Shown: one piece after another, positions 7,110 to 41,891 of the stretch
Layout of the letters: each line of letters starts with the position of its first letter
Position numbering within the stretch: the stretch's first letter is position 1
NCBI GenBank assembly: GCA_030706145.1
Contig: JAUZPB010000029.1
Span: 1 to 41,891, forward strand
Length of the DNA stretch: 41,891 nucleotides
Source: Bacteroidota bacterium
GTDB lineage: Bacteria; Bacteroidota; Ignavibacteria; Ignavibacteriales; SURF-24
Reading direction: 5' to 3'
Notes under the pieces: generated by a model
Seen by the model: the letters and a program-made list of their open reading frames with translations, nothing else
Database searches by the model: none
What the model was told of the DNA's origin: nothing
Translations under genes and position numbers: made by a program

Positions 7110-7149
7110 TTTAAATTTATTCTGGCATTTAAATAGAACTGGAAATAAA

Positions 7150-18325: not shown

Positions 18326-18351
18326 AATATCTTAGAAAATAAAACATCTGC
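18318..18351 (+). repeat. Imperfect 17-bp tandem duplication
   Basis: GAAAATAAAATATCTTA (18318-18334) is followed directly by GAAAATAAAACATCTGC (18335-18351), with 14 of 17 positions the same. The first copy includes the stop codon of the DUF2905-type gene. Confidence 0.65.
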
Positions 18352-19661: not shown

Positions 19662-19734
19662 AATCTTTAGATCTATGAAATAAAATATGCGTGCTCTTTT
19701 AACAATGATAATTCTTTTTGGCGAAGGAGGATAA

Positions 19735-20511: not shown

Positions 20512-20515
20512 AATT

Positions 20516-21559: not shown

Positions 21560-21602
21560 TAAAACCTTCTGTGCTTTTTTTTGTCTCTAAGCTTTGATGT
21601 GG

Positions 21603-21628
21603 CTTTCCTTTGGGAAAGTTCATTTTTT
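21603..21628 (+). terminator. Possible intra-cassette terminator or attenuator
   Basis: CTTTCC (21603-21608), loop TTTG and GGAAAG (21613-21618) form a 6-bp stem, followed by TTCATTTTTT. It lies between the SDR gene and the repeat-bearing leader of the first methyltransferase. The stem is short, so its strength is uncertain. Confidence 0.4.
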
Positions 21629-21660
21629 CAAAATTAGTATTTGAAAAATACAATGCCGCT

Positions 21661-21728
21661 AAATGAATATTAAAGGGAAATGAATATTAAAGGGAAATGA
21701 ATATTAAAGGGAAATGAATATTAAAGGA
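21661..21728 (+). repeat. Four-copy 17-bp tandem repeat forming coupled mini-cistrons
   Basis: The unit AAATGAATATTAAAGGG occurs at 21661, 21678 and 21695 exactly, and at 21712 with a final A instead of G. Each unit holds an ATG and a Shine-Dalgarno-like AAAGG. Starting at 21663, 21680 and 21697, three six-codon frames (Met-Asn-Ile-Lys-Gly-Lys) end in TGA overlapping the next ATG. The fourth ATG (21714) is in frame with the methyltransferase. Confidence 0.95.
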
Positions 21729-21734
21729 GGGATA

Positions 21735-22967: not shown

Positions 22968-23031
22968 ATATTCTTAATGGCGAAATTATATAATAGACTA
23001 AAACTTAAGTAATAAGAGAAAGTTGTATTAA

Positions 23032-26094: not shown

Positions 26095-26853
26095 TTACCT
26101 TACTCTCTTTCCATTTTTCAGAAAATCTTCAGCAAGTCCTTTTAATGATCCATCTGCTTCAAGAATTGGTTCCGGGGAGTATTGAATGGCATATGCCCGG
26201 CGCATTTTATTTGTGAGATTTGGCCCTGAACGGTGGAAAACTGTACTTGAGAAAACAACAATAGAACCCGCTTTACATATGGCTGCTATACCAGGTTCAT
26301 TGCCAAAATATCCAACACGGTCATTGGAATTTGGGAGAGGTTTATGTTCTACCTTTTCCCGAGTGCCTGCTACCGAATAGGGAAGTAAATATATTGTTCC
26401 ATTTTCCTCATCGGCATCATCAAGCGGGATCCATGCATTTACATAAGGCTTGTGTTTATAGTCAACATATCCTGAATCTTGATGCCAGCCAAACTCGCTG
26501 CCAGCTTTTTCAGTCCCCTTTATAACAAATTGCTCCCAGAAAAGCATGGCATTTTCTCCAATTGTTGCTTTACAAATTTCAGCCATCAGACCACTAAAAA
26601 TAAATTCACCAAGTTGCCTTCTCTCTTTATATGCAAGAAATACAAAATATCGGCTGTTGCGGCGGCTTAAATTGAGCTCATTAACTCCTAAACGATCCAT
26701 CTCTCTATCCTGTGCGGCTATTAGTTCAGCGCACTCCGAGCGTAGAGTCTCAAGATCCCTCTCTGCTATTACTCTATCCAAAATAAAGAATCCATCTTCC
26801 TGATATTTTCTCTTTTGTTCATCGCTTACTCGAAAGCTGGTTAATACTGACAT
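26095..26853 (-). CDS. Phytanoyl-CoA dioxygenase (PhyH) family protein
   Basis: This 252-residue protein belongs to the PhyH group of iron(II)/2-oxoglutarate-dependent oxygenases. The iron ligands His124 and Asp126 are in WHQDSGY and His207 is in VFHRSGPN; an Arg in MRRAYAIQY is the likely 2-oxoglutarate contact. Bacterial members hydroxylate varied small molecules, and the substrate here is unknown. It is the last gene of the minus-strand island, after the nucleoside hydrolase, but a hairpin at 27087-27115 and a 321-base gap suggest it has its own promoter. Confidence 0.9.
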   Translation of the reverse strand: MSVLTSFRVSDEQKRKYQEDGFFILDRVIAERDLETLRSECAELIAAQDREMDRLGVNELNLSRRNSRYFVFLAYKERRQLGEFIFSGLMAEICKATIGENAMLFWEQFVIKGTEKAGSEFGWHQDSGYVDYKHKPYVNAWIPLDDADEENGTIYLLPYSVAGTREKVEHKPLPNSNDRVGYFGNEPGIAAICKAGSIVVFSSTVFHRSGPNLTNKMRRAYAIQYSPEPILEADGSLKGLAEDFLKNGKRVR

Positions 26854-27174
26854 AGTCTGACCTTTCTTAGATTATTGTTTTGGAAAAAAGAACATCCAAT
26901 GAAGCTAAAGACAATGATCCCACAAACTGCGGCCATTTACTTTTTGGGGGACTCTCTTTTAATGCATTTTATCTCAGGCATTAGTAGTCAACACTTTCTG
27001 CCTAATTATATAAGTTTAGATCTTTTCTCTATCTGTAATTATTTTTTATGAATGGAAAAACTTTTTGATTATCTGGTGAAAAAGTAGGGCATAACTAAAA
27101 GTGTAAGTTATGCCCGTGGAGAGCTAAATGAAAATTCTTTAGAAGTATTCTAGAAGCAAAATTATTTATATAAT
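26854..27174. other. Intergenic region upstream of the PhyH gene
   Basis: This 321-base gap contains a 10-bp perfect hairpin at 27087-27115, listed separately. The remaining 230 bases should hold the promoter of the PhyH gene on the minus strand; no recognisable element was found. No gene or RNA is evident. Confidence 0.5.
27081..27115 (-). terminator. Rho-independent terminator after nucleoside hydrolase gene
   Basis: GGGCATAACT (27087-27096) pairs perfectly with AGTTATGCCC (27106-27115) across a nine-base loop. On the minus strand the stem is followed by TACTTTTTC. It lies 60 bases after the stop of the nucleoside hydrolase gene. Confidence 0.7.
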
Positions 27175-28056
27175 TTATTTAAATACCGAAATATAATGCT
27201 GAAAGAACCTGTCTGAATTTACCTTAAGAGCTACTTCATGACGAGGAGACGAATTCTCAGGATCCCATTTTGTTAAACCGAGTGTCTCTATATCGTTCAT
27301 CTCAATTTCAACATTCCCTTTACTGAAACTGCAAATCTCGCTATCAAATATTGTCGCTGCTGCAAGTGGATCATGAAATGTTGTACCATTATACATTGTA
27401 AACCAATATTGCGAAAGATCATGAACTGGTTCGAAGATCGGAAAATCAAATGCTCTGCGGAATTCTTCGGGTGACATAACAACGCTTGTCGTTACATCCA
27501 GACCAACAGACCTGTGCATGCGAATATCTGCCCTATATACAATATCTGAGGCATGATAATCACCCATTATATTCCATTCAAGTGGACCAATATCGCCAAT
27601 CTTTCTTTCAAAATATCCACCCATCATAACCAAACCTTTTAGGAGTGAGGGAATCTCAGGATCAACTGAGAAGAGCAGACCGATATTTGTTAATGGTGCA
27701 ATTGTTAGCAGTACAATCTCTCCAGGATTGTTCCTTATCGTTCTGCGCATGAATTCGATGGCTTCTCCTTTGGGGAATTTCTTTTGATGAGGCCACCTTG
27801 CTAATGAATGTGCCTGCTGGGCTACAGTCTGCCCTTGCTGTATTAGTATTGGAGAATTTGACCCTGGATAGATGGGGATCTCTTTGCCAGCTGCTTTGCA
27901 TATCATACTTGCAAGCATTGCACGTTTTTCAGCCTCTCCTGTTACTGTTGTTATTCCCATTAATTCGCATTCGGGATTTGCTAATAGATAAGCTAAACAG
28001 ACTGCATCATCTATGTCAGTTCCTATATCTGTATCAAGTAGAATTTTGACGCCCAT
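27175..28056 (-). CDS. Nucleoside hydrolase (inosine/uridine-preferring family)
   Basis: Nucleoside hydrolases split ribonucleosides to base and ribose. The 293-residue product begins with the calcium-binding Asp cluster LLDTDIGTDIDDAV (Asp8, Asp10, Asp14, Asp16, Asp17), one residue longer between the first Asp pair and the DD than in the Crithidia enzyme. It also has the ribose-site GPLEWNIMGDYHASD segment and the late calcium ligand in FHDPLAAA. No signal peptide is present, so it acts in the cytoplasm. GGAGAA precedes the ATG. With ribokinase and ribose pyranase encoded upstream in the same island, the ribose released could be phosphorylated directly. Confidence 0.92.
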   Translation of the reverse strand: MGVKILLDTDIGTDIDDAVCLAYLLANPECELMGITTVTGEAEKRAMLASMICKAAGKEIPIYPGSNSPILIQQGQTVAQQAHSLARWPHQKKFPKGEAIEFMRRTIRNNPGEIVLLTIAPLTNIGLLFSVDPEIPSLLKGLVMMGGYFERKIGDIGPLEWNIMGDYHASDIVYRADIRMHRSVGLDVTTSVVMSPEEFRRAFDFPIFEPVHDLSQYWFTMYNGTTFHDPLAAATIFDSEICSFSKGNVEIEMNDIETLGLTKWDPENSSPRHEVALKVNSDRFFQHYISVFK

Positions 28057-28355
28057 TAATTCTCCATTGCCTGGTTGTAAAAATTCAGCCGCTATTTTGA
28101 TCTTTCTTTTGCTGGCTGTGAAACAATTAACTTTTATGATTTTACTAAAAGAATAAACTGTTCCTTAATGCTTTTAATCAGCATCAAAATAGCGGCAGAA
28201 ATCAGATGCATGGAAATACAATGCGGGTCTCTACTGCTTCCCTCCTTTTATTTAACATATATGCCCTTTATGTCAAATAATATGTGACTCTACAAAAAAC
28301 AAGTTCCATTCCACACTTTAAGTTTTAAGGAATGATTAACTGAATTTTATGAGCC
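28057..28355 (-). other. Long 5' leader of the nucleoside hydrolase gene with inverted repeat
   Basis: This is the interval between the candidate promoter and the nucleoside hydrolase start. It contains a 14-bp perfect inverted repeat: GCCGCTATTTTGAT at 28088-28101 and ATCAAAATAGCGGC at 28183-28196, 81 bases apart. If transcribed, the arms would bring the ribosome-binding region near the base of a large stem. No known riboswitch was recognised. Confidence 0.55.
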
Positions 28356-28386
28356 CAAATATATAACTATGACTATTTCACAACAA
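28356..28386 (-). promoter_or_regulatory. Candidate promoter of the nucleoside hydrolase gene
   Basis: On the minus strand, TTG (28383-28381) is followed after exactly 17 bases by TATATTTG (28363-28356). This fits the TTG-N17-23-TAnnTTTG promoter pattern known in Bacteroidota. It lies just after the isomerase gene stop and about 300 bases before the nucleoside hydrolase start. Confidence 0.6.
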
Positions 28387-28408
28387 GGGCAATTTAATTG
28401 CCTAAATT

Positions 28409-29341
28409 TCAAGAGCCCCCTGTAAACTGAAAAAGGTGTTTGTAACCTATTTTTAATCCTTCCTTTACTTTTTCTTCAGAGCCTTCCCAAATGGGATCTT
28501 CGTGTTCAATTGATATAACCTGGTCATAACCATTATATTGCAAAGTTTGTATAAATGCTTTCCAGTCAATCTGCCCAAGCCCGGGAATCCTATAGCGCCA
28601 CCATCCGCTTTTCCATGGTATATGCTCAAGTTGACGGGAAAATATTCCATACTGATACTTGCCATCTTCTAATATCTCAGTATCCTTTGCATGTGTATGG
28701 AAAATTTTTGAAGAGAAATCCTTTATTACTCTTATGTAGTCAATTCCAAGCCATAACAGGTGTGATGGATCTAGGTTTAAACCGAAATTTTTACTGGGGA
28801 CCTCATTAAAAAGTGCATTCCACAGTTCGGGAGAATATGCATAATTACCAGGTACACCAAATTTCATCCAACCTTCCATAGGACAGTTTTCTATCATTAT
28901 TCTTACACCTTTATCTTCTGCATAACTTAATATGCTTCTGAAGATTTCGCCGATCTCTTTTATATTTTTATCCGGATCTTTGTCAGCTCTGCCCCCTACA
29001 AAAGTACCAACAAGATTAACTTCCAGAAGAGCAGCGGCATCTATTACTTTTTTAAGATGATTCTGGAATCGTGTGCGTTTATTAAGATTAGGATGAAGAT
29101 TGTTGTCATAGTATGCAAGTGATGAGATGCATAAGCCCTTCTTTTCAATTATATCTTTTATTTTCTTTGCCCCATCCTCATTTAGAGTTGCGGCATTGAT
29201 CTGACGCCCTTGATAGTCACGGCTGGATTTAGCCGGCCACGCTGCTAATTCAAGTGCCTGGAATCCCTCCCCAGAAGCCCAATTTGCAAGCTCTTCGAGT
29301 TTTAGCTTAGGCAGACATGCTGTCAAAAATCCAATTTTCAT
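28409..29341 (-). CDS. Sugar phosphate isomerase/epimerase (xylose isomerase-like TIM barrel)
   Basis: This 310-residue protein has the AP-endonuclease-2/xylose isomerase-like TIM barrel fold. The likely metal-site residues occur in order: Glu in IMIENCPM, Asp and His in NLDPSHLLW, His pair in FHTHAKD, and Glu in ISIEHEDP. Members interconvert sugars or sugar derivatives such as inosose, hydroxypyruvate or ketoses; the substrate here cannot be assigned. No signal peptide. It is in the minus-strand island directly after the TIM-barrel glycosidase-like gene, 59 bases apart, suggesting it processes a product of that enzyme. Confidence 0.88.
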   Translation of the reverse strand: MKIGFLTACLPKLKLEELANWASGEGFQALELAAWPAKSSRDYQGRQINAATLNEDGAKKIKDIIEKKGLCISSLAYYDNNLHPNLNKRTRFQNHLKKVIDAAALLEVNLVGTFVGGRADKDPDKNIKEIGEIFRSILSYAEDKGVRIMIENCPMEGWMKFGVPGNYAYSPELWNALFNEVPSKNFGLNLDPSHLLWLGIDYIRVIKDFSSKIFHTHAKDTEILEDGKYQYGIFSRQLEHIPWKSGWWRYRIPGLGQIDWKAFIQTLQYNGYDQVISIEHEDPIWEGSEEKVKEGLKIGYKHLFQFTGGS

Positions 29342-29400
29342 TTTTCTTCTGTCTCCGTATGTTTTTCAATATTCTAAACAATCTGATCTATATATTAGCT

Positions 29401-31065
29401 TTATTTTAATGTCTCTGCACGTTTTATCATTTTGTGTACTTCGGGTATATCAATCTTCTGATTATTATTGTATAAGCATAGTGCAGGTATAATGCCTAAC
29501 TTTTTATAAGACTTTTCCTGCAGTTTATATAATGGATGCGCTGGATACTTTGTTAGCAGGTGTGCCGTGAGTTTTGTGTATTTACCAAATAGGTATGCAG
29601 AAACTGGATGAACTTTTCTCCAACGCTTTTTACCTTCCATTGCATGTACATCAGCAAGGCTGTCAATCCCATGAATTTGTGCAAAACAAAGTGAACTTAA
29701 TACCTGTTCATGAATACCTTCTCCTGCAAATAATATACCTGGAAAAGTATTCTGCAATCTCTTTATATGATCTTTCACACCTGTTAAAAAATTAGGACCA
29801 TTGGATATGTTGAATGCCAGAAGTGTTTGATCAAGAAATATGGCATCAAGTTCATAACCCATAATTAGGTCGCCTAAAACCTTTTCCATATAATCGCCCC
29901 ATTGCATAAAGCCAGGATTTATATAGGCAAAATATTCCTCGGTAAGCCAATCTCCATCAATATCCATAGCCCATCCCTGTGAACGATTAAAAACATCTTT
30001 TACCTGATATTTACTAAAGTCTGGATAAAGCGGATGATGAAACGTCATGGCTAGTGCATTTGTATGAATCATTACATGATAGCCCATCTCATGAGCCGTA
30101 TCTACTAGTCCTTTGAATTTTTCTTTGCCGCCACATTCTGGGCTTGGACTATAAGATGGAGCATTTGAGTCAATGCCGTGTTCTGCAAAGCCCGGTAAGT
30201 AAACAAGTGTTTTCTCTGGCGAATAATAATTATTCCACTCTTTAAGTCTTCCTGTCATCTCTTCAAATGTGTGATGTGGCACAGGACTATCTTTTCTCAT
30301 TCCCCAAATTTCTAAAATGAAATTTATTTTCCCGGCCCATTTGGGATAATGCGGATTATCTTTAAGACTTAGTACGTTAAATTCCTTTTCCATCCATTTC
30401 CTGTGACTATCAACAGCTTTCCTCCAGCTCCCTTTATATGAGCATAAAAACCAACTAGCTTCAATTTGATTAGACTTAAGAGGAGCATCAGCTTCAAAAC
30501 CTATGCTCAAGGAAAAATCCTTTTCTCCTTTGCTTACCCTTAACATTTTTAAGTGCGCTCCCGGATCTTTTGTGTGAAGCATTAAAAGCCCATTTTTATT
30601 GGCCCCTATTGCAAACTGTGCATTCCACCAAAATGGATATTTATAGGACAAAGTCGTGTCGGGAGTCATATCCTTTGTCAGGCTTTGACCTCCAAGTGCA
30701 GGAATGATGACTTCATCAAAATTCAATGAACTTAGCTTCCACTCAGCCAGCCATAGTGGACTATCACTTGAAATAGCTTTCATATTAAAGCAAATCCCAA
30801 ATTCTGATTGACTTAATGTTATATCTGCTTTGTTTTTTAAGCCCTCATCACTTAGTGTAAATTTTATCTTGGAGTTCTCTGCAACTAAACTCTGGAGCTT
30901 AAAGACAATAGCCGGTTCAGATATATGTTCTGGGACCCTAAGAAGAATTGTTTGTTTACCATTTATACAAAACTTGTCACCAGTTTCTTCGTTTATTATT
31001 TCAGTGATCAAAAAAGGCTCTTCATTAAATACAAGCTTTGTCTTACCCGAAGAAATTGAATGCAA
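29401..31065 (-). CDS. TIM-barrel glycoside hydrolase-like protein, DUF6259-like
   Basis: This 554-residue protein has an N-terminal beta-rich half (about 1-235) and a C-terminal barrel (about 245-540), the layout of GH36/GH31-like clans and of DUF6259-type proteins. Possible catalytic residues are the Asp in DAIFLDQTLL (about 411) and the Glu in FAGEGIHEQ (about 440); this is inference from position. It has no signal peptide, so it appears cytoplasmic. A second likely glycosidase lies upstream, with ribose-handling genes between. The family assignment is from general resemblance and the substrate is unknown. Confidence 0.65.
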   Translation of the reverse strand: MHSISSGKTKLVFNEEPFLITEIINEETGDKFCINGKQTILLRVPEHISEPAIVFKLQSLVAENSKIKFTLSDEGLKNKADITLSQSEFGICFNMKAISSDSPLWLAEWKLSSLNFDEVIIPALGGQSLTKDMTPDTTLSYKYPFWWNAQFAIGANKNGLLMLHTKDPGAHLKMLRVSKGEKDFSLSIGFEADAPLKSNQIEASWFLCSYKGSWRKAVDSHRKWMEKEFNVLSLKDNPHYPKWAGKINFILEIWGMRKDSPVPHHTFEEMTGRLKEWNNYYSPEKTLVYLPGFAEHGIDSNAPSYSPSPECGGKEKFKGLVDTAHEMGYHVMIHTNALAMTFHHPLYPDFSKYQVKDVFNRSQGWAMDIDGDWLTEEYFAYINPGFMQWGDYMEKVLGDLIMGYELDAIFLDQTLLAFNISNGPNFLTGVKDHIKRLQNTFPGILFAGEGIHEQVLSSLCFAQIHGIDSLADVHAMEGKKRWRKVHPVSAYLFGKYTKLTAHLLTKYPAHPLYKLQEKSYKKLGIIPALCLYNNNQKIDIPEVHKMIKRAETLK

Positions 31066-31129
31066 CTTTTTCCTCCATTATTTGTATTTAATATTATTTT
31101 GAAATAAAGGGACTAAATATTATGGCACT

Positions 31130-31534
31130 TTAAGAGAAGGTGACGCCGGAAGATAATATAATATTGGCATATGGAGTAGCTTCTCCAGTCCTTACAAATG
31201 CAACTGTGGCAGATTGATGTGCTAATTTTTTGAAGTCTTCGTGAGTTATTTTATTTATCTTTACCCCAGGAAACAGTGAAGTTACCTGCTTATAAAGGCC
31301 GTTGTTTAATTGTTCCATTTCACTTGCAATAGTAATCTCCTCAACTTTTAGTTCATCTAAAACTACTTTTAATGTATCAATAAATTTGGGAATATTAGCC
31401 GTAAGGGCTAGATCAACTGTTTCAAAACCTCTTGGGATAGGTAGACCACTATCACATATGACTAGCTTATCTGTATGTCCCATTGAAGCAATTACTTTTG
31501 CTAGCTGCGAATTAAGTATACCACACTTCTTCAT
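31130..31534 (-). CDS. rbsD: D-ribose pyranase
   Basis: RbsD interconverts the pyranose and furanose forms of ribose so that ribokinase can use it. The 134 residues match the family across their length: MKKCGILNSQLAKVIASMGHTD (His20), ICDSGLPIP (Asp28), EMEQLNN in the middle and the C-terminal YANIILSSGVTF. The length is close to E. coli RbsD (139). It follows rbsK in the same direction, with 135 bases between, and no ribose ABC transporter genes accompany it here. Confidence 0.93.
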   Translation of the reverse strand: MKKCGILNSQLAKVIASMGHTDKLVICDSGLPIPRGFETVDLALTANIPKFIDTLKVVLDELKVEEITIASEMEQLNNGLYKQVTSLFPGVKINKITHEDFKKLAHQSATVAFVRTGEATPYANIILSSGVTFS

Positions 31535-31669
31535 AATTATATGCCTGTTTAATTATATATCTATGAAAATATTTTATTACAAATAAAGCTATTTTATGAA
31601 TATCTCAGTTGGCAAAGGTGTATTATGGTGGATTTAATTTCAATTAAGTTGAAATGCATATTCTTGTTT

Positions 31670-32605
31670 TCATGTACCATGAGGCCTTTGTAGTTCAAGG
31701 ATCTCATTAAATCCGGGCATTGAACTTTGTGCTCCCATTCTTGTAACTGAAATTGCAGCTGCAAGGTTGGCAAATTCAATGGCCTCTTCTATTTTATAGT
31801 TTTCCGATAAAGCTGAAGCCAAAGCCCCATTAAAAGCATCTCCTGCACCGGTAGTATCAATAACATCAACAGGTTTTGCTTTGACCTTGAGTGTTTTGTC
31901 ATCCGAAATATAAAATGCCCCTTTGCTACCCATTGTTACTATGACATTCTTTACTCCATAACTTAGAAGCTTTGCCCCTGCTTTTTTTATATCTTCAATT
32001 GAGTGAATGGTTATGGATGTTAGTCTTTCTAATTCGACTTCATTAGGAGTAATATATGTTGTCAGTTTTAACAGCTCATCTGGTAGTTTATCTGTAAGTG
32101 CTGGAGCTGGGTTTAAGATGAACATAGCCCCATTTTCTTTTGCAAGATGTGCACTTCTAAGTACTGTTCCTATTGGTATTTCAAGCTGCGCTAGTACGAC
32201 CTTGACACGCCTAAAAAGTGGGATTCTTGCTTCTATATCCTCTAAAGAGAGTTTCATATTGCTTCCAGAGATAACTACAATTTGATTTTCACCATGATGA
32301 TCGACCGTGATCATGGCAATCCCCGTAGGATTTGCATAATCAATAAAGATCCCGCTTAAATCAACTCCATCTGCTTGCATACTTTCAAATATTTTGTCTT
32401 TAAAGACATCACTTCCAAAACGGCCTACAAAAAAAGTATCACTTCCAAGTTTAGCACTCGCAACAGCCTGATTTGCTCCTTTCCCACCCGGAAACATTTG
32501 GAAACTTTCTCCAAGTATTGTTTCACCGGGAAGAGGGAAGTGATCGGCTTTGACTACCATATCCATATTCACACTACCGATTACTAAAACTCCCTTCTTC
32601 TCCAT
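31670..32605 (-). CDS. rbsK: Ribokinase
   Basis: Ribokinase makes ribose-5-phosphate from ribose and ATP. The 311 residues show PfkB-family signatures: GSVNMDMV near the start, FPGGKGANQAVASAKLG (about 38-55) for sugar binding, ITPNEVELERL, and the catalytic DTTGAGDAFNGALASAL (about 250-266), where the Asp of GAGD is the base. AGGAGAGG precedes the ATG. It lies between the GH106-like gene and rbsD in the minus-strand island. Confidence 0.95.
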   Translation of the reverse strand: MEKKGVLVIGSVNMDMVVKADHFPLPGETILGESFQMFPGGKGANQAVASAKLGSDTFFVGRFGSDVFKDKIFESMQADGVDLSGIFIDYANPTGIAMITVDHHGENQIVVISGSNMKLSLEDIEARIPLFRRVKVVLAQLEIPIGTVLRSAHLAKENGAMFILNPAPALTDKLPDELLKLTTYITPNEVELERLTSITIHSIEDIKKAGAKLLSYGVKNVIVTMGSKGAFYISDDKTLKVKAKPVDVIDTTGAGDAFNGALASALSENYKIEEAIEFANLAAAISVTRMGAQSSMPGFNEILELQRPHGT

Positions 32606-32717
32606 TATTTTTTCCTCTCCTGAAGAATGATTTCTAAAATTATTAGCTTCTTACTGTGTTTTAGATTATTGACACTATTTTGATTCAATTATTTTTTTTG
32701 ACGATCTGCCTGAAACC

Positions 32718-35700
32718 TTATATTTTTACTTTTTTCCACTTATTTCCTTTTTTATTTGCTTTCCCATCACTAGGTCTTATCGCCTTATAGTTATTAATGT
32801 CAATTTGATATTGAGGGTGAAAAGTAATCAAAGGTTCTTTGAAGATTCCCGATGGTTTCTTTACTCCTTCTAGCATATTTATCAGTGTATTTGTAACCTT
32901 TAGAGTAATCTTGTTATTTCCTTTTCTTAATAAGCTATTTATATCGAGTCTATAAGGGTGCCATGGGATCACTCTTGCTTCTGAATTATTTACTATCACC
33001 TCTAAAACATCTTCACCGCAATCAGTATTTAAGAACATTTTCCCCATTAAATAGCTTTCATCCTTTATCTCAAATTCTGTTTCATAAATACCTGTACCTG
33101 AAAAATATGGATATCCATTTTCTGTCCAGTCACCAATTGAGATCTTTTCAATGGGCTTTACTATTTTATATACATCAAAGTTTTGTCCATTGCTGCGTTC
33201 ATCGTTTGATTTTTCAAGAGCAAAGTTTCCTGCAATTTTTAGTAAGTCTAAGATGCCGTCAGTGCGTCTTTGGACAATGAGCTTTATTGTAACAAGATTT
33301 GCTCCAATAGTTAAAAAATCTTTTATATCTATCTTTTTTATCTCTGCATCAAGACTGCTTCTAACTGCTTTGGTCAAATCCATCTCACTTCCATTTATAT
33401 AAAGCTTATAGCTTTTAGAGCTAAAACCATCAATAAGCAAATCTACTTTATCTTCTGGAATGAAGTCCATAATAAAAATTGTTCTATACCATAATGTGAC
33501 TGGATAAATTTCTTTTGTCCTTTCCACTGGAAGCATCATTTCCCAGGCCCCATTAGTTACATTAAGCCAATTGGAATCATCAAAAGCAATGGACGTATAT
33601 TCTTTATCAATTGCTTCTATGTTTTCATCAACTTTCATTTTCCAATGTGATAACAAAAGTGCATTCTCACCCTCTGTCTTAAAACTAAACTGCTTTCCAA
33701 GTCTGATTGGGCTTAGTATTTTTTGTCCTTTTAATTTTATAGTTTTTTGTCCTGATTCAGATTTTAATTTTATGTAAGGAATATCGGATTTGTTGTCCTC
33801 TGGATAACCTTTTATCAGCCCTTTTTCATAAGATTCAATATGAAGGTTTGAGCCTATAATCAGATCCTTGTAAGATCTGGTGCTGCTAAACTTTTCTTTA
33901 AATATAACAAAGTGAGACTCTGAAGGTGCAAAGCTGAGAGTTAGATAAATTCTGCTATCCTTAACATCAAATACATTGACCTTTTCAGTTTCTCCCGTAT
34001 CTGCATTCCAGAGCTCGGGCAAGAGAGAGGATTGTTCAAAACTTATACTAACATTTCTTATATCTTCTTTAGAAGTGTTTACAATGAAGTAGATGTGATA
34101 GCCATCTTTTAATCTGTGAAGGTAGAAAACATCTTCATGCGAGATTTCACAATCAGGAATTAGCAGCTTATTTAATGCAGCCTTTAGCTCTTCTTTTCTT
34201 CGTTCTTTGCTTTTTCCCTTCGAACTGATAAATGAAATATTTTTATTCCATTTATAGCTCTTAGCTGAATGATTTTTTGTCGATTGTGCTTTTATTGCTT
34301 GAAGGATTTCCATAGGATCAGCTCCAAAGAACTCCTTTAACTGCTTCTGATACTTCAGTATTTCGCCTGGAACGCTTTGCCCGTTTTTTCTGGAATTACC
34401 ATCTTTTTTGCTTAACTTAGAATCTCTTGGAGCAGTATCTTTTTTTATAGGTTCGATAGGCACAGTATCGCTTAATAGCTCAAAAGGTATAAGTGTATTG
34501 CATAATATTTTCCCGCCTTGTGATGAAAACTTCTTTACTATTTCAAAAGTCTTCTCCTTCATATGCGTAATTGGAGGCAGGATTAAAAGTTCATATTCTT
34601 CATCCTTTATGTTTATTTTACCATCTCTTAACTTTGCCTCTAAGAGCACATCCTCATCTACATAATCGTAATCATAGTGAAGCCTAAGAAGCGTATCGGT
34701 TAGAAAGTAAAACTCATCTTCTATTATTTTTGCAATGGGATTCCTTTTCTGAGGAGTATAGTTCGTCCAGATTGAACTTAAAGGAAAGAGTACTAAGACT
34801 TTTGCAATGTGTTTGCCTCCGGATAAACTGTGCCCTAAGCGTGCCATATATGTCGTAAAATGGTTATAAAACTTCCACCATGTATGATGATAGAACTGAC
34901 TTGGAGGCCAATCACGCTTCCTTTCTCCTTCTATCGAATAATGATAGCCATGATTATTAAATAGATTTACTCCTAAGGCATATTCCCAATTTGCTATCCA
35001 TTTCATCCGTTCTAAAGTGCAATCCCAGTATGCTCCTCCCATCGATTCACAAAGAAGTCTTGTTGACCCAAAATGATGTGCTGCAGAACTGGCGAGTTTT
35101 AGTGCAACATGCTGGTCCGGTTCTTTTTCTGTTCCAATCTTAGGATAAAGATGATCTACACCTGTAATGTGCATCTGTCTGAGATGATGAAATATATTGC
35201 CTTCACACCTGGCCTGTAATCTAAGCCATTCCTCAAAAAGTAAATGCCCAGTAAAGATTACTCCGTTTTCATCACACCATTGCCTTATTTTCTTGTAGTA
35301 AGTATCAGTATACTGCTCAGATAAACTTCTCCAGAAATCATATCTTATTTTGGCTGTAATTTCACCCATATTCAAATACAAAGCTGGCAGATATGGCCTT
35401 AGATTATAGCCCCTTCTTTCTCTGAAGATCCTAAACATTTCAGATGACCACGGTATAACATAATTGTCTACTCCTACCTGGTAATAATGCATTGCAGGTT
35501 CATCGGTATAGAATCCGGGAACAATGCCTCCAAAGTCTTTGCCTACTGCCTTTTTGTAACCCTCATGTGTTATCTCAATGAATCTTTCTGTACTCTCAGG
35601 ATTCAGAGCATCAATGTAGTATGGCACTTCTTTTTCAAGGAAATACAGTAGTCTCCATTTACCTTCAGGAGCTTCCCATGGGATTACTTTGTTGAATGAT

Positions 35701-36227
35701 AGATTAGGTGTAAGGTCAATTAGTTTTTTTATGACTGTCTTAAATTCTTCATTCGTGCAGGCAAATGCACAAATTGGCTTTGAATCACCTGTGTTGACAT
35801 ATCTTGAATCAGTTGCTTCTAAAAATGTAAAAAGGGGACCGTCAATATTAAGTGCGACAAGCTCCAGGTACTTCTGCGATAGATGAGGAAACCGGCTTAT
35901 GACCTTGCGCTCTGCTGTTCCACTTGGCCAATTCATCTCGTCATATATCCAGATCTGAAGTCCTATCTCCTTTGCTTTTTCTACTGCAAATCTGACTCTT
36001 TCGAACCAGGTCTCAGATAGATATCCTATCTTCTCACCAAATCTCCCATGGATGAACAATCCTGGTATTCCTTTTGCCTTATATTCCTTCATCTGATAAA
36101 GCATTTCTTCTTCGTCCATCTCTCCATTCCAAAACCAGAATGGCAGTATGCTCATATCTACAGGTGGAACATTAAAAGTCTCTTTTGTTAATTTTTCTCC
36201 ATGGACGAGTTTGTCAGATATTGCCAT
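32718..36227 (-). CDS. Large GH106-like glycoside hydrolase
   Basis: This 1169-residue protein resembles the GH106-related group, in which the characterised members are alpha-L-rhamnosidases. The N-terminal catalytic region (about 15-560) has PFWFWNGEMDEEEMLYQM, IWIYDEMNWPSG, FYTDEPAMHY and CESMGGAYWD, segments rich in acidic residues expected at the active site. A basic, Ser/Lys-rich insertion (about 592-685) separates it from beta domains. The last part (about 830-1110) has sugar-binding jelly-roll features ending SLLRKGNNKITLKVTN. No signal peptide is seen, which is unusual for such a large enzyme. AGGAGG precedes the start at a long spacing. Substrate is unproven; related sequences carry only a general glycosyl hydrolase label. 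Confidence 0.8.
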   Translation of the reverse strand: MAISDKLVHGEKLTKETFNVPPVDMSILPFWFWNGEMDEEEMLYQMKEYKAKGIPGLFIHGRFGEKIGYLSETWFERVRFAVEKAKEIGLQIWIYDEMNWPSGTAERKVISRFPHLSQKYLELVALNIDGPLFTFLEATDSRYVNTGDSKPICAFACTNEEFKTVIKKLIDLTPNLSFNKVIPWEAPEGKWRLLYFLEKEVPYYIDALNPESTERFIEITHEGYKKAVGKDFGGIVPGFYTDEPAMHYYQVGVDNYVIPWSSEMFRIFRERRGYNLRPYLPALYLNMGEITAKIRYDFWRSLSEQYTDTYYKKIRQWCDENGVIFTGHLLFEEWLRLQARCEGNIFHHLRQMHITGVDHLYPKIGTEKEPDQHVALKLASSAAHHFGSTRLLCESMGGAYWDCTLERMKWIANWEYALGVNLFNNHGYHYSIEGERKRDWPPSQFYHHTWWKFYNHFTTYMARLGHSLSGGKHIAKVLVLFPLSSIWTNYTPQKRNPIAKIIEDEFYFLTDTLLRLHYDYDYVDEDVLLEAKLRDGKINIKDEEYELLILPPITHMKEKTFEIVKKFSSQGGKILCNTLIPFELLSDTVPIEPIKKDTAPRDSKLSKKDGNSRKNGQSVPGEILKYQKQLKEFFGADPMEILQAIKAQSTKNHSAKSYKWNKNISFISSKGKSKERRKEELKAALNKLLIPDCEISHEDVFYLHRLKDGYHIYFIVNTSKEDIRNVSISFEQSSLLPELWNADTGETEKVNVFDVKDSRIYLTLSFAPSESHFVIFKEKFSSTRSYKDLIIGSNLHIESYEKGLIKGYPEDNKSDIPYIKLKSESGQKTIKLKGQKILSPIRLGKQFSFKTEGENALLLSHWKMKVDENIEAIDKEYTSIAFDDSNWLNVTNGAWEMMLPVERTKEIYPVTLWYRTIFIMDFIPEDKVDLLIDGFSSKSYKLYINGSEMDLTKAVRSSLDAEIKKIDIKDFLTIGANLVTIKLIVQRRTDGILDLLKIAGNFALEKSNDERSNGQNFDVYKIVKPIEKISIGDWTENGYPYFSGTGIYETEFEIKDESYLMGKMFLNTDCGEDVLEVIVNNSEARVIPWHPYRLDINSLLRKGNNKITLKVTNTLINMLEGVKKPSGIFKEPLITFHPQYQIDINNYKAIRPSDGKANKKGNKWKKVKI

Positions 36228-36332: not shown

Positions 36333-37328
36333 TTAAAATGCAAACATGACTGTAAACCTGTGGGGTGATTCAAGGAAATCATATTTTACATAAGAGTAGT
36401 CAAATTGTAGTCTAAAGCCTGAAAGCTCTGTATTTAACCCAATCCCTAGGGCAAGGTTGCCTTCATCATAGTTCACACGGTATCCGGCTCTTAATGCTAT
36501 TGTATTAAGCAGAACATATTCCCCTCCAAAGTTCAGGCGTTCAGCATAATCATTTGAATGAACAGCATCTATGTTTATAGATAGCCTGCTTTTCATAGGA
36601 TCACCTCCAAATAGAAGATCCTCACCTCCCATCAGATCAATAGATGTTCCTATCTTAAAGAGTAAAGGGAGTTCAAAACTCTGCTGCGATTCCTCTTTTG
36701 TTTGGAGCCACCTTGCCTGCTTTGAAAAGTTCTGCGCAGTCATTGCTATTCTTATTCCTTTCCAGCCTGTATTATAATATGTCCCAACATCAAAGCTCCA
36801 TAAAGAATTACTTAGTATGTATAGATCCTCTCGTAAATACTTAGCATTTATTCCTATAGACAGCTTGTCTGTGAATTCCCTTGCTATCGCTAAGCCAATT
36901 GCTAGGTCTTTGCCACTAAAGGTGTTGCCTGTACGTGTATCTGTACTTCCTGATGAACTTGTAACAAGTGCTTCCTGAATCTGACCATAGTCTAAGCCAA
37001 TATAGTTTAAGGCTATTGTTCCTATACCAGGAAGTTTATAACCTACTGCTCCGGCAATTACATTTAGGTCAGCAATCCACTTTGTATAGTTGAAGGCAGC
37101 CTGGATATTCTCTAGCTGTGTAATTGCAGCTGGATTCCAAAATACACTGTTTATATCCTGAGTGTTTGCAATTACAGCTTCACCCATTCCACTAGCCCTG
37201 GCACCAATACCAATTTTTAAGAATTGATATGTAGTTCGTCCCGCTTTATTAAATTGAGCATAGACTTTCATATTTGTTGATAATATAATAAGCGGAATGA
37301 GTAGCAGTATTTTTATTAATATCTTCAC
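36333..37328 (-). CDS. PorV/PorQ-family outer-membrane protein
   Basis: This 331-residue protein has a signal peptide (about 1-24, ending KVYA) and a beta-barrel body of the PorV/PorQ family (FadL-like). The diagnostic N-terminal segment is FLKIGIGARASGMGEAVIANTQDINSVFWNPAAI. The C-terminus ends in Phe (FTVMFAF), as many outer-membrane barrels do. In Bacteroidota PorV helps deliver type IX secretion cargo to the surface; other members have unknown roles. The start is GTG, with GGAGG ten bases upstream. It lies after the FlgD-tailed protein gene, 90 bases apart, a pairing that suggests a shared job. Confidence 0.9.
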   Translation of the reverse strand: MKILIKILLLIPLIILSTNMKVYAQFNKAGRTTYQFLKIGIGARASGMGEAVIANTQDINSVFWNPAAITQLENIQAAFNYTKWIADLNVIAGAVGYKLPGIGTIALNYIGLDYGQIQEALVTSSSGSTDTRTGNTFSGKDLAIGLAIAREFTDKLSIGINAKYLREDLYILSNSLWSFDVGTYYNTGWKGIRIAMTAQNFSKQARWLQTKEESQQSFELPLLFKIGTSIDLMGGEDLLFGGDPMKSRLSINIDAVHSNDYAERLNFGGEYVLLNTIALRAGYRVNYDEGNLALGIGLNTELSGFRLQFDYSYVKYDFLESPHRFTVMFAF

Positions 37329-37418
37329 CTTTTCTCATCCTCCGTCTTTCAATTCTCTCCTGGAATATATATAGCCTGGTGTTTCTGTAAATGTATATAT
37401 ATTTCTAACCACGAAAAT

Positions 37419-39617
37419 TTATCTAATGATCATTAGCTTGCCGGTAAACTTCTTCCCAGTAGATCCCTCAGTTTCGGATTGTATTACATAAATATAGAGC
37501 CCTGGCGCTACAAGAAGACCAGATTCACTGCGCTGTTCCCAACTTGCGCTTCCATATTTATTACCATTTACATCAGGACCATGTTCAATTGTCTTAATAA
37601 GATCACCGGAAAGTGTAAATATCTTTATTGTTGCCTTTTCTGGTAAATTCCTGAATTCGATCTTTAATGGCGTTGGTGAACCGAAACTATGTGTAGGATC
37701 GCCTTCTATGTATGGATTTGGAACAGCAAATACATCCCACCCATTTGCTACCGATACAGGCCCCTGACGTGCACTTGTAAGTGGTGTCCTGTTATAGTCA
37801 TCACTTGAAAGTTCTGGCAGATTGGTGACCTTCGTTCCATTAGCACTAGTCCAGGGCTTTGGTTTTGAATTATATGCCTGAACATAATAATAGGATTCAA
37901 AGCCAAATTTGACCGAGCGGTCAAGATATTCGTAACTGTTTATATCTGCTCTCCAATACTGCTGCATCTGAGCTCTTGGAATATCTGCTACAAGATCCCA
38001 AATCCCTCTTTTATCATTGCTCCTGTATATTCTGTAGCCCGACAGATCAGTTGATCCATCATAGAATATACTTCCAGATCCATCATTTATTTTTGCTAGT
38101 TCAGCGGCTTTATTCCACTGTACAGCAATAATTGCAGAATCGCTTCCCTTTGAAGCATTTGATGCCCTGCATTCAGGAGCCGGAGGTCCTTCTGGTACAT
38201 CGGCTGCTAGATCAATTCCATTTACCTTTGCTCCAAAACCCCATTTAACTGCATTCCTGACAGCCTGAACATGCCTTCGCATTGCTGCAATTGTACTATC
38301 AGGATACCAATGATTCGGATCCCCCATATAAACCTGCTTCATATCCATTACACCTGCAACTTCGGCTAAAATTATTCGGATCGAATCCCCGGGAGCCAGA
38401 GTATATGGCCCAAATGAACTGGTATACCAGCAGTATAGGTTTCCCTGGTTTGATGGCCTTATAGAATGTGTGGCATAATCATAGAGTTGCTTGGCTGTAA
38501 ATGGACTAAGGCCAAATGACTCAAAGTCAACTGTTTTTCCTTCAAACTTTGCTTGCTCATCACTGTAAATATTAAAATATGTCGGATCTGCATCAAAAGG
38601 ATCCTGGTTTGCCGCACCTTTGGGTGGAGTCCTGTATAAAAATACATAACCGAATGCACTTGGATCCTGAAGCTCTGGTGGCAACTTCCCTTTATTATTG
38701 CTAAGAAGACTATCCCAATGGGCCTTTAATCCATAGTTGTCCCAGGGCACAGGAGCGCGACCGCCATTAAAATTCCTGGAATAGTATAGTAGCCCTTTGC
38801 CATCTCCCTTTACTTCATCTTCTACAGCATAATAGTCGAAGTAACCACTACCTGGATGCCACCCGAAACCTCCGGCAGGAGCAGCTGAAGAAAGAAATTG
38901 ACTGTTGTAATGAAAGTTCAGCATCCCTTTTGTTGAGACTTTTAGACCACTGTGAAAGACAAACCATACTTCATTTAATGTCTGATCAACATGAATGACT
39001 TTATTTATTGCTGGAACAACCATATCTCCTGTGTTTTTAAGGACATAATCGTATATAATGAAATCATGAAATCCTGGAAAGCTCCAAGCCATCGACCTTT
39101 GCCGAACTGTTATTCCCGTTGAGGTCTGGTAGGTACATGTGTTCATCTCTTCGGGCAAAAGAGGGTTAAAGTCTGTGCTGCCTACAAAATTGTGAAGTGT
39201 TTGAAATGGTGCAATTGTACTTAAGACACCATTGTCTCCAGTTGCAAGCGATGCCTGATAAATTACATAATCTTTCGGTGTTGGTGTAAATGCAGGAGCA
39301 ACTGGATATTGCAGATCCTTTGCAATTATCCATGGACCACTGCGGAAATTATGAAAATTTGCATCTGTTATAAATCCGTTTGCAGTTTGTTCATCATGCG
39401 GATATGTAAATCCAGGGAAACCGGGATAAAATCCAATCCCAGTTGTCTCAAGATAATCCCATGCGCCGGGATCACCTATAAATCCCCAATTATATAGCGT
39501 CTCCCAAAGCTTACCGCGAGTATGTACGGCTGAATTTTGCTGTGGCCAAATAGAAGTTGTGACTAAGAAGAGTAATGACGCTATGTTAATAAACAATATT
39601 ATCTTTTTGCTTTTCAT
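37419..39617 (-). CDS. Secreted protein with FlgD/T9SS-like C-terminal domain
   Basis: This 732-residue protein has a signal peptide (about 1-26, hydrophobic core IILFINIASLLFLVTTSI). A large N-terminal part of unknown fold follows, rich in Tyr, Trp, Phe and Gly, then a fibronectin III-like segment (about 515-615, LSGYRIYRSNDKRGIWDLVADI). The C-terminal domain (about 640-732) has NPYIEGD, IKIFTLSGDLIKTIEH and GLYIYVIQSE, ending FTGKLMIIR. This tail resembles those that direct or anchor proteins outside the cell in Ignavibacteria-like bacteria. The function of the main body is unknown. It lies between the TonB-dependent receptor and PorV-like genes and may be surface-exposed. Confidence 0.82.
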   Translation of the reverse strand: MKSKKIILFINIASLLFLVTTSIWPQQNSAVHTRGKLWETLYNWGFIGDPGAWDYLETTGIGFYPGFPGFTYPHDEQTANGFITDANFHNFRSGPWIIAKDLQYPVAPAFTPTPKDYVIYQASLATGDNGVLSTIAPFQTLHNFVGSTDFNPLLPEEMNTCTYQTSTGITVRQRSMAWSFPGFHDFIIYDYVLKNTGDMVVPAINKVIHVDQTLNEVWFVFHSGLKVSTKGMLNFHYNSQFLSSAAPAGGFGWHPGSGYFDYYAVEDEVKGDGKGLLYYSRNFNGGRAPVPWDNYGLKAHWDSLLSNNKGKLPPELQDPSAFGYVFLYRTPPKGAANQDPFDADPTYFNIYSDEQAKFEGKTVDFESFGLSPFTAKQLYDYATHSIRPSNQGNLYCWYTSSFGPYTLAPGDSIRIILAEVAGVMDMKQVYMGDPNHWYPDSTIAAMRRHVQAVRNAVKWGFGAKVNGIDLAADVPEGPPAPECRASNASKGSDSAIIAVQWNKAAELAKINDGSGSIFYDGSTDLSGYRIYRSNDKRGIWDLVADIPRAQMQQYWRADINSYEYLDRSVKFGFESYYYVQAYNSKPKPWTSANGTKVTNLPELSSDDYNRTPLTSARQGPVSVANGWDVFAVPNPYIEGDPTHSFGSPTPLKIEFRNLPEKATIKIFTLSGDLIKTIEHGPDVNGNKYGSASWEQRSESGLLVAPGLYIYVIQSETEGSTGKKFTGKLMIIR

Positions 39618-39685
39618 CTTGAAGCTCGCAAATAAAATAGTACTCTTTAATTTTATTTTAATTAGTGCGCCAATAGTTGAAAAAA

Positions 39686-41891
39686 TTAAAAACCAATGGC
39701 TAAGCCAAATGTAACTTGCCTCGGTAAATTAGTATACTCTAGCATATCGGGGAATGGAGCTCCATTTGAACTAGTTTGCGGGAAGACTGTAAAGTTTGAA
39801 TTAATAAAACGTACCCTATCCTCAGGAGATGATGACTTTACTACGTCAAGATTTGTCCACTGATCGTTAAATACGTTTCTTATTTCAACATAAATTGCAG
39901 GCTTAAAACCAAGTATTTCAAATTCTTTTCTTATTCTCATATCTGCATTTCTGTATGTATTTCTTGTATATGACCTTCCGGCTTCAGCAAAAACGTCACT
40001 TGCAATATTTTCATTTGGAAAATAGAGCTGATAATCAAATGATACTTGAATGTTCTTGAATATGCTTCCTAAGAACTGCATATCGTTTGGAGTGGCTATT
40101 GTAAATCCAAATTTAAGCCTTGAAGGATCATACTGAATAATATCACCTATATCGACATTCTGACTAACCTGTATATTTGACCCCGGAGGGGCTATTACGC
40201 TTGGATCTCCTGAACGGCCTGAAATACCTGTGCTCCAGGAATAATTCAGATAACAACCCCACAGGTCCGTTAATGGTTTGTTAAGTGAGATTTCTATACC
40301 TTTCGAATCACCATAATCACCATTACCCGATGTAAGATATCGCCCACCACTTAGTGTATATACTGTAACTGTCCTGATCGTTTTCGTTATGTCTTTATAA
40401 AATGCAGTTAAGTCTGCTACTAGACCTCCAAAGTTGTGTTCGACACCAAGCTCATAGGCAACAGTTTTCCTGGGCTTTAAATCGCGATTTCCAAGGTTAT
40501 AAGGAATAGGCAATGAGCTTGTTGCATCTACTGTATATGTATTAAGAATACCACTTACGGTTGTGCCTTCCCCATAGTCTCCAAAGCTTGCTCTTTGAAA
40601 AAAGTGCCCATAGGAAAAGTGAAGTACTGTCCTTTCACTTATCGGATGAGAAATACCAATCCTTGGTGAAAGCTGCCCATAGGTCTTTGTCGGCTCTGTC
40701 TGCGGATTTGGAGCTCTCCCTTCTAAAGCAGCTGTATAGGTGTCAAATGGATCAAAAATATTGGTATATATCCTGTCATTTGCATTATAAAAATCAAATC
40801 TTAAGCCTAAATTCATTATGAGTCCTGAGAATTCAAGCTTATTCTGAAAGTATAAATTCCCTTCATAAGGATGATATGTCCTGTCTTCAATTGCCTTGAA
40901 AGCTTTTGTCTCCTGATAACGCTTTAACGTATAGTAGGTGAAACCACCACCGCCTTTCATTTGCCAGTACTTGCTTAACTGGCTTGTCATATTACCCGAT
41001 AAAGTCATATCTGTATTACTATCATGACCCCTGTAATAATAACCTGTTGTATGAAGGCCAATTATATTGCTGAAACCTCCTACAATCGGGTTGCCCTGGG
41101 CATCTGTTGCCCTTAGATAGTCGTACTGCGGAACACCGGTTTCCCAACCATTAATGTCCCCAGGAAACGTCCCCTGACTTTTATACCTATGTACCCTTGA
41201 AAGTTGTATCTGGTAGAATGTGCTCTGACTTAAAACGTGAGTCATCTGAAGGGTTTGCCCATCAGTCCGGTTCTCAGGATAACCGGGATAATCGTAATAA
41301 GCATATTTGTTCTCAAGTCCATGCCCAGTTATAAATTCAGCATCAATTGACTCCATACCTTCATTTGAATTATTTAATCCATAGAATCCAGAGAGCATAA
41401 ATTTTACGTCCCCTAAATGATACGAAATCTTTGCATTACCATCGAACCAGCTTCCTAGCCTTCTTATTGAGTTTCCTGTAATAGGTGGAGCTTCTCTATA
41501 TTTCCCTGATATAAAGAAAAACATATCTTTTATTGGCATTGGCCCGCCTATAGAAATCTCTTCCTGAGTTGTGCTTTCATTTGTATAATCGGTAAGAGGC
41601 TGATGAGTAGCCATATAGTACTGATATGCCTGCTCAGGTGTCCAGATGCTTTTAGGATCACTGCCTGGTGTCCCGTTGGGATCCACCCACTGATTTGGAT
41701 GATCAATCCACCACTGAAGATGCCTTGCATGTGTATTTTCCCAATAACGGTCTGTCGAGTAATCATAAAAAGCCGTTCCCCAGTGCCTTAAACCCGGTGG
41801 CGTCCACCTGAACTCAGCGTTCCCTGTTAGGTTAGGAGTTCCATCTTTTGTTACAATGTTGAAAACACCTGATTGGGCTTCTCCATATTCA
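39686..41891 (-). CDS. TonB-dependent outer-membrane receptor, 5' end beyond window
   Basis: The visible 734 residues are the end of the plug and the whole 22-strand-type barrel of a TonB-dependent receptor, which imports ligands across the outer membrane using TonB energy. The frame is open to the last base and begins with EYGEAQSGVFN, the typical end of the plug domain; an in-frame GTG at 41686 is not the start. Barrel strands alternate aromatic residues, for example the HFSYGHFFQRASFGDY region, and the C-terminus ends PRQVTFGLAIGF with the terminal Phe. A CarboxypepD-like N-terminal extension, common in this group, would lie outside the window. It is probably the first of the three envelope genes of the island; the ligand may be a glycan or nucleoside. 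Confidence 0.9.
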   Translation of the reverse strand, partial: EYGEAQSGVFNIVTKDGTPNLTGNAEFRWTPPGLRHWGTAFYDYSTDRYWENTHARHLQWWIDHPNQWVDPNGTPGSDPKSIWTPEQAYQYYMATHQPLTDYTNESTTQEEISIGGPMPIKDMFFFISGKYREAPPITGNSIRRLGSWFDGNAKISYHLGDVKFMLSGFYGLNNSNEGMESIDAEFITGHGLENKYAYYDYPGYPENRTDGQTLQMTHVLSQSTFYQIQLSRVHRYKSQGTFPGDINGWETGVPQYDYLRATDAQGNPIVGGFSNIIGLHTTGYYYRGHDSNTDMTLSGNMTSQLSKYWQMKGGGGFTYYTLKRYQETKAFKAIEDRTYHPYEGNLYFQNKLEFSGLIMNLGLRFDFYNANDRIYTNIFDPFDTYTAALEGRAPNPQTEPTKTYGQLSPRIGISHPISERTVLHFSYGHFFQRASFGDYGEGTTVSGILNTYTVDATSSLPIPYNLGNRDLKPRKTVAYELGVEHNFGGLVADLTAFYKDITKTIRTVTVYTLSGGRYLTSGNGDYGDSKGIEISLNKPLTDLWGCYLNYSWSTGISGRSGDPSVIAPPGSNIQVSQNVDIGDIIQYDPSRLKFGFTIATPNDMQFLGSIFKNIQVSFDYQLYFPNENIASDVFAEAGRSYTRNTYRNADMRIRKEFEILGFKPAIYVEIRNVFNDQWTNLDVVKSSSPEDRVRFINSNFTVFPQTSSNGAPFPDMLEYTNLPRQVTFGLAIGF

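Follow-up and report, generated by a model that had tools for sequence, protein, structure and literature searches.

A conserved glycosidase locus with ribose genes in Ignavibacteriales, divided into two pieces in one genome

In C. glutamicum a nucleoside hydrolase and a ribokinase are encoded in one operon, and in L. sakei iunH1 and rbsUDK are both upregulated on ribose, as described in the available part of PMC3146418. Both enzymes, with RbsD as in L. sakei, and the potential route from a riboside to ribose-5-phosphate recur in the stretch analysed here (the window), which is the whole 41,891-nucleotide contig JAUZPB010000029.1 of an Ignavibacteriales genome; by comparison, they are embedded here in a glycosidase locus that has outer-membrane uptake genes and in which no nucleoside transporter family was recognised. 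The locus also resembles Sus-like polysaccharide utilisation loci (PULs) in having a TonB receptor ahead of linked glycosidases, an inner-membrane sugar carrier, sugar kinases and a single coding strand, but it differs from them in that no SusD was found among the proteins scanned, the receptor falls far below the SusC model and has as neighbours a protein related to the type IX secretion system (T9SS) and a PorV-like one, and several of the main glycosidases have no hydrophobic N-terminus. M. roseus can use ribose for growth and carries a SusC/D/E operon for starch, as stated in the available part of its genome paper (PMC3534657), whose main text does not contain the term 'ribokinase'. Our analysis leads us to lean towards the explanation that the window carries one half of a conserved glycan-utilisation locus for a ribose-bearing polymer or oligosaccharide, with RbsD and RbsK taking the released ribose.

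The gene run of the window and its conservation

The window, contig C212, belongs to a genome of 5.3 Mb (G000; 345 contigs, 98.48% complete, 2.68% contaminated). Ten minus-strand genes follow one another inward from the contig end; they are listed here with a hairpin and with scores in bits.

39686..41890, minus strand: TonB-dependent receptor, 5' end cut by the contig end (PF00593, 72.4)
37419..39617, minus strand: 732-aa secreted protein with weak T9SS C-terminal similarity (weak NCBIfam matches, to the C-termini of PorU/PorZ models only)
36333..37328, minus strand: PorV/PorQ-family outer-membrane protein (NF033709, 188.1; cut-off 90)
32718..36227, minus strand: GH106-like glycosidase (Glyco_hydro_106 PF17132, 141; cut-off 29)
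31670..32605, minus strand: RbsK ribokinase (PfkB PF00294, 247.2; cut-off 25.8; TIGR02152, 360.1; cut-off 299.65)
31130..31534, minus strand: RbsD D-ribose pyranase (RbsD_FucU PF05025, 145.9; cut-off 25; PRK11797, 165.1; cut-off 93)
29401..31065, minus strand: DUF6259-like glycosidase with a GH129-like fold (PF19773, 42; cut-off 28.7)
28409..29341, minus strand: AP_endonuc_2 sugar isomerase/epimerase (PF01261, 130.7; cut-off 31.1)
27175..28056, minus strand: nucleoside hydrolase, IUNH (IU_nuc_hydro PF01156, 189; cut-off 34.2)
27087..27115, minus strand: terminator-like hairpin downstream of IUNH (10-bp stem, loop of 9, U-rich stretch after)
26095..26853, minus strand: PhyH-family oxygenase (PF05721, 86.4; cut-off 22)

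The seven open reading frames (ORFs) from GH106-like to PhyH, which a first-pass annotation of the sequence had joined into a catabolic island at 26095-36227, are indeed encoded together on the minus strand and belong to their families above the Pfam cut-offs. The unit reaches further, to the contig end, where the receptor, T9SS-like and PorV-like genes (36333-41890) adjoin the GH106-like gene upstream. Across 146 genomes of the order, strong orthologs of the GH106-like protein (63-81% identical over the best stretch) occur in 12, and strong DUF6259 orthologs (51-64%) in the identical 12 (G000, G005, G007, G008, G009, G015, G028, G030, G036, G090, G135 and G140), a match of sets with p ~8e-18 under genome independence, which is indicative only, since the genomes are not independent. 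Ten more genomes have weaker GH106-like matches, G000 itself has such matches at other places as paralogs (26-34%), and four more genomes have weak DUF6259 matches. All 12 carriers have RbsD, as do 5 other genomes (112-146 bits in four, a weak match in one), whereas orthologs of IUNH (58-65%; 10 of 12 carriers) and PhyH (64-81%; 11 of 12) are found in no other genome, all other matches being at most 30% identical. The carrier G140 has neither IUNH nor PhyH, yet it is only 80% complete, with its locus in pieces. In all nine relatives with the locus on one contig, GH106, DUF6259, RbsD, IUNH and PhyH share contig and direction, with IUNH about 25-31 kb from DUF6259. The grouping of these genes is not chance; the island is real, and the separation in relatives that had been named as its refutation did not occur when gene set and order were looked for in other genomes. 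In a sample of the phylum (395 genomes), strong DUF6259 orthologs are present in 7, all of this order and including the genome of the window, and weak ones in 10 more.

The named set comprises 20 loci from a scan of named genome contigs with the window's DUF6259 protein, titled Ignavibacteria/Ignavibacteriales, Melioribacter(aceae), Bacteroidetes, KSB1, Neomarinimicrobiota, Caldithrix, Rhodothermia or 'bacterium'. Nine of them are contigs of the numbered genomes (L018=G008, L021=G135, L023=G036, L024=G090, L028=G028, L029=G009, L030=G140, L035=G015, L037=G007), so the counts of 20 loci and of 146 genomes overlap. GH106 and RbsD stand beside DUF6259 in 17 of the 20, the exceptions L019, L030 and L033 being cut by contig ends; RbsK is present in 15 of those 17 and missing from L026 and L036. 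AP_endonuc_2 is found in 16 of the 20, the contigs of L019, L033, L034 and L036 stopping within 1.7 kb of DUF6259, and it directly follows a Gfo/Idh dehydrogenase in 13 of the 16 loci that reach it. Relatives of the T9SS-like protein (45-79% identical) hold the same position in 14 of the 20, and the other 6 are cut upstream. IUNH lies within the fetched flank in only two loci, both KSB1, because in most relatives it sits further off. Outside the order, the neighbourhood occurs in KSB1 (L020, L022), Neomarinimicrobiota (L031, L034) and Caldithrix (L036); Rhodothermia contributes the DUF6259 gene only, on a 4.4-kb contig. On the question of transfer between phyla, a DUF6259 tree of 21 rows has 7 of 18 inner branches well supported.

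The intact locus is exemplified by G009 (L069, L029, L056), where it spans at least 53.6 kb, a lower bound as the first gene is cut by the fetched stretch, and holds 39 ORFs from a simple ORF caller, all on one strand. Its order begins with an ATP-binding cassette (ABC) solute-binding protein, two ABC permeases, a GWxTD-type protein, a protein without family, an OMPP1/FadL-like protein, a T9SS-tailed protein and a zinc dehydrogenase. These are followed by the TonB-dependent receptor, the T9SS-like protein, PorV, GH106, RbsK, RbsD, an aldo-keto reductase (AKR), a GH39-like protein, the small protein F3, DUF6259, Gfo/Idh, AP_endonuc_2, GH42, a major facilitator superfamily (MFS) carrier, five tandem GH10-like proteins (three in G008) and a GH13-like protein with a T9SS tail. 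The end is formed by an NAD epimerase, GH2, a 400-aa protein with no Pfam match, a cupin, a second AKR, a flavodoxin-like protein (assigned by eye), xylulokinase (TIGR01312, 588 bits; cut-off 380.25), IUNH, a solute-binding protein, an ABC ATPase and PhyH. Locus families were scanned on one representative each (mostly L018/L045/L053, L024, L056 and L069) and transferred by similarity. Intact loci thus hold about ten glycosidases. Carriers in relatives' loci are MFS proteins, ABC solute-binding proteins and an ABC ATPase, and the two permeases of G009 are of sugar type. Linked, co-inherited glycosidases with an inner-membrane carrier are present, as in Sus-like PULs.

In some variants the locus gains a PIG-L deacetylase and a protein of 780 aa that weakly resembles oligosaccharide amylases. 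In Neomarinimicrobiota a sulfatase-family protein (L031:6564-8054, L034:6637-8040; only L031 was scanned) stands where others have AKR, and the substrate of these versions is perhaps sulfated. URO-D-family and corrinoid-binding proteins lie inside the locus in G005, G008 and G135 (L053:5737-6885 and 14720-15397), a pair that would possibly remove a methyl group from a sugar. In G030, a GntR/LacI-like regulator gene, named by eye, is found just after the locus (L055, reverse, ~18125-19219).

Predicted functions of the locus proteins

The GH106-like protein finds its best PDB matches in 5mwk/5mqm, which we take to be BT0986. Its barrel and C-terminal beta domains align with them, and its E394 falls on their E593, although the overall similarity is low (100.8 bits over 1169 aa). 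We assume that E593 and E461 of 5mwk are catalytic; the place of E461 fell outside the aligned stretches. Both E394 and E243 are invariant in 15 sequences, the window's included, and E243 may be the second catalytic Glu. With its Pfam score and a conserved putative catalytic Glu, the protein belongs to GH106. The DUF6259-like protein belongs likewise to PF19773, and its predicted structure (predicted local distance difference test, pLDDT, 88.2) matches best, among the matches listed and over its whole length, the alpha-N-acetylgalactosaminidase NagBb (5wzp; Z 26.9, rmsd 3.3, 507 aligned). It thus shares a fold with GH129 enzymes, which also include the 3,6-anhydro-D-galactosidase ZgGH129 (Z 23.6-26.9), but is only 11-13% identical to them, and the sequence profile match is weak (E 8.4e-4). 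D412 and E449 are invariant in 21 sequences and lie at barrel-strand ends, and by analogy with GH129 they are the likely nucleophile and acid/base.

Membership of the nucleoside hydrolase in its family is supported by the Pfam score and by the preserved Asp cluster, ExN and HD motifs, whose residues presumably serve metal binding and catalysis; the corresponding D8, D10, D16, D17, E160, N162, H228 and D229 are invariant in 9 sequences, the window's included. No NCBIfam equivalog cut-off is reached by IUNH (best 117.5 of 382). RbsD passes the D-ribose pyranase model, and RbsK passes TIGR02152 while missing the second ribokinase model PRK11142 (320.8 of 341). Among the enzymes found in relatives, the GH39-like protein has its nearest profile in PslG (73 bits), an enzyme that hydrolyses an exopolysaccharide, and F3, a 156-aa protein just ahead of DUF6259 (L024:9516-9986 and relatives), matches the ureidoglycolate lyase family PF04115 above the Pfam cut-off (41.1 of 23) and falls far under the NCBIfam ureidoglycolate lyase cut-offs (25.8 of 160 and 25.5 of 212). 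The pair of Gfo/Idh and AP_endonuc_2 recalls levoglucosan breakdown by LgdA/LgdB, in which, according to the available part of PMC7676230, the dehydrogenase adjoins a protein annotated as sugar phosphate isomerase/epimerase; by comparison, an anhydrosugar context is not seen in the locus.

By hydropathy, without a signal-peptide predictor, no strongly hydrophobic N-terminus is present in the GH106-like protein, which is probably cytoplasmic, or in DUF6259, RbsK, RbsD, AP_endonuc_2, IUNH, PhyH and GH42, whereas one is present in the T9SS-like protein, PorV, the GH39-like protein, GH2 and PIG-L, with a weaker measure for GH10 and GH13. The full-length G008 ortholog of the cut receptor consists of CarbopepD_reg_2, Plug and barrel, and scores 69.9 bits against the SusC/RagA model TIGR04056 (cut-off 368.25), so that it does not qualify as SusC-type; a receptor of this kind may nevertheless function like SusC. 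No SusD family was detected among the scanned window and G008 proteins around the receptor. The 732-aa T9SS-like protein has no Pfam match and a low-confidence predicted structure (pLDDT 64.8); its own genome holds one other full-length relative (27%), the remaining matches being partial and mostly to the C-terminal part. The receptor, the ~730-aa T9SS-like protein and the PorV-like protein form a conserved trio at the place expected for SusC/SusD. An amylase identity of the protein ahead of the receptor was rejected, since the match is to the common T9SS tail and Pfam finds only tail-type domains in the G008 protein.

Two complementary pieces in one genome

In the genome of the window the locus is present as two colinear, complementary pieces, namely the window and the contigs C14-C144-C301 (L044, L066, L067). 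C14 carries the GH39-like gene, F3, Gfo/Idh, GH42, MFS, PIG-L and the start of F9; C144 the remainder of F9, a partial GH10, GH13 and the start of the 400-aa protein; and C301 the remainder of the latter and the ABC ATPase. C14/C144 and C144/C301 have identical 141-base ends that overlap exactly, and the three contigs were taken as adjacent because such ends typify neighbouring contigs of one assembly graph. Both halves keep the gene order of relatives, and no locus gene was matched in both (E 1e-8) except for a T9SS-tail match on C14. The GC content is 0.355-0.373 for the window and C14-C144-C301, as compared with 0.475-0.496 in the loci of three relatives; contamination as the source of the second half is disfavoured by this shared composition, which is not proof. 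The simplest history would be that the locus was first duplicated and each copy then lost what the other kept, and a series of rearrangements is a possible alternative. In four window gaps, searches for remnants of the missing locus genes gave only chance-level matches (E > 0.1) besides the flanking genes.

Within the window, intergenic gaps are 59-135 bp as far as AP_endonuc_2, then 352 bp ahead of IUNH and 321 bp ahead of PhyH, and the run stops after PhyH because the M23 peptidase gene beyond it is on the opposite strand. The 81-nt stretch of the IUNH-PhyH hairpin folds at -16.6 kcal/mol (z -3.67; 1 of 200 shuffles equally stable), and PhyH may be transcribed apart from IUNH since this stable hairpin and its U-rich stretch separate them. 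The terminator pattern scan did not list it, as a loop of 9 is outside the scanned pattern; pattern counts are at chance level (promoter-like 33 against 35.7, terminator-like 7 against 7.2). Elsewhere in the window, a row of genes at 18711-24282 encodes a glycosyltransferase, a sugar nucleotidyltransferase, an NAD epimerase and two C-methyltransferase-domain proteins and looks like C-methylated sugar synthesis. The stretch 339-10151 holds the chemotaxis genes CheA, CheW, CheR and CheB and, after them, hybrid histidine kinases, of which one carries a PocR sensory domain.

The substrate and competing explanations

Because of the glycosidase content, the locus is more than a simple ribose operon, as the first-pass annotation had held, although the two glycosidases counted there are an undercount. 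Its argument from a missing ABC transporter is correct as an observation, in that none occurs among the 28 window ORFs scanned with Pfam, but fails as an argument, because MFS and ABC ATPase genes of the same genome sit with the second half and relatives have them too. The combination had also been thought not to be a described pathway; nucleoside hydrolase with ribokinase is already described (PMC3146418, in its available part), whereas no description of the whole locus was found. Nor was any open-licence paper found on DUF6259, a ribofuranosidase glycoside hydrolase, a nucleoside hydrolase in a PUL or a KSB1 GH106 PUL, which is weak evidence, as is the former negative, given that the searches covered open-licence literature only.

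A modified nucleoside had been put forward as a substrate, and a locus for a glycosylated or O-methylated nucleoside would let IUNH free the base, RbsD and RbsK take the ribose, and the glycosidases and PhyH strip decorations. The occurrence of IUNH, RbsD and PhyH tracks that of the locus almost perfectly, the Pfam match of F3 is one hint of purine breakdown, the URO-D-family and corrinoid-binding proteins of three genomes would fit as well, and a nucleoside hydrolase taking 2'-O-methyluridine, with ribokinase genes near such hydrolases, is described in the available part of PMC6278475. However, a small nucleoside would hardly call for some ten glycosidases along with a TonB receptor and surface-sorted proteins, no base-catabolism family other than the weakly scoring F3 was recognised among the locus proteins scanned, and G005 keeps the locus without IUNH. 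A conserved set made up mostly of glycosidases and outer-membrane uptake makes a nucleoside improbable as the main substrate. We likewise consider it unlikely, if slightly less so, that the sugar handled by RbsK and RbsD is a different pentose or hexose from the polymer, with IUNH accessory and ribose not involved. PfkB kinases and RbsD/FucU mutarotases differ in substrate, and other pentoses are suggested by the xylulokinase and by GH10/GH39 relatives that resemble xylanases or xylosidases; yet RbsK and RbsD each score above an NCBIfam cut-off specific to ribose, and 10 of the 12 carriers have IUNH, which could supply ribose. That a nucleoside-salvage operon came by chance to lie beside glycosidase genes is very improbable. 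Nucleoside hydrolase and ribokinase operons exist elsewhere (PMC3146418, in its available part), and the hairpin and the two wide gaps break the gene run of the window, but RbsD (with RbsK in 15 of 17 loci) lies between GH106 and AKR/GH39/DUF6259 in contigs whose titles name several phyla, and the patterns of occurrence agree across the 146 genomes. Chance adjacency was rejected on this co-occurrence and kept gene order.

We therefore return to a glycan-utilisation locus for a ribose-bearing polymer or oligosaccharide, against which several observations count. The ribose branch is not strictly required, since G005, rated 100% complete, has a readable locus without IUNH, and L026 and L036 have no RbsK; RbsD, moreover, occurs in the five genomes without the locus. 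The GH106-like protein is far under the alpha-L-rhamnosidase BT4145 equivalog (NF049897, 140.4 of 1300), the Gfo/Idh protein of L024 is under the levoglucosan dehydrogenase (LgdA-type) cut-off (NF052479, 203.2 of 650), and the F3 match would fit purine breakdown. No AKR, GH2, epimerase, xylulokinase, solute-binding protein or permease of the locus was found in a search confined to the contigs read from this genome, and the sole GH10 match there covers residues 243-566 of 571, so the pathway in this genome may be reduced or decaying.

In the scheme that we propose, whose substrate, localisation, flux and enzyme activities are all predicted, the T9SS-like surface protein, the PorV-like protein and the TonB receptor would take hold of a branched polymer or oligosaccharide that bears ribose, and perhaps xylose as well, and bring it in; exported GH13-, GH39-, GH10- and GH2-like enzymes would trim it. 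MFS or ABC carriers would move fragments into the cytoplasm, where GH106-like, GH129-fold DUF6259 and GH42-like enzymes would complete the breakdown. Gfo/Idh and AP_endonuc_2 may act on a residue through an oxidation and an elimination, in the manner of levoglucosan breakdown, and PhyH may strip a modification or oxidise a side product. Ribose from IUNH or other glycosidases would pass through RbsD and RbsK to ribose-5-phosphate. IUNH may act on polymer ribosides or on nucleosides; a bolder and doubtful version makes the IUNH-fold protein a true glycosidase (O-ribofuranosidase) of a ribose-decorated polysaccharide, fed by the TonB/T9SS/PorV module in place of SusC/SusD. If so, a 'nucleoside' enzyme family would have been recruited into glycan foraging.

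The locus would link ribose metabolism to polymer breakdown and includes a family of unknown function, DUF6259, with a GH129-like fold. With its two colinear pieces, this genome clearly illustrates how a catabolic locus can be dismantled, and the intact form, at over 50 kb, offers a catabolic unit open to testing in the poorly cultured Ignavibacteria, KSB1, Neomarinimicrobiota and Calditrichota. If the ribose stems from a polymer, the locus would be a dedicated route for ribofuranose-bearing polysaccharides, and the nucleoside hydrolase fold would possibly have a second role.

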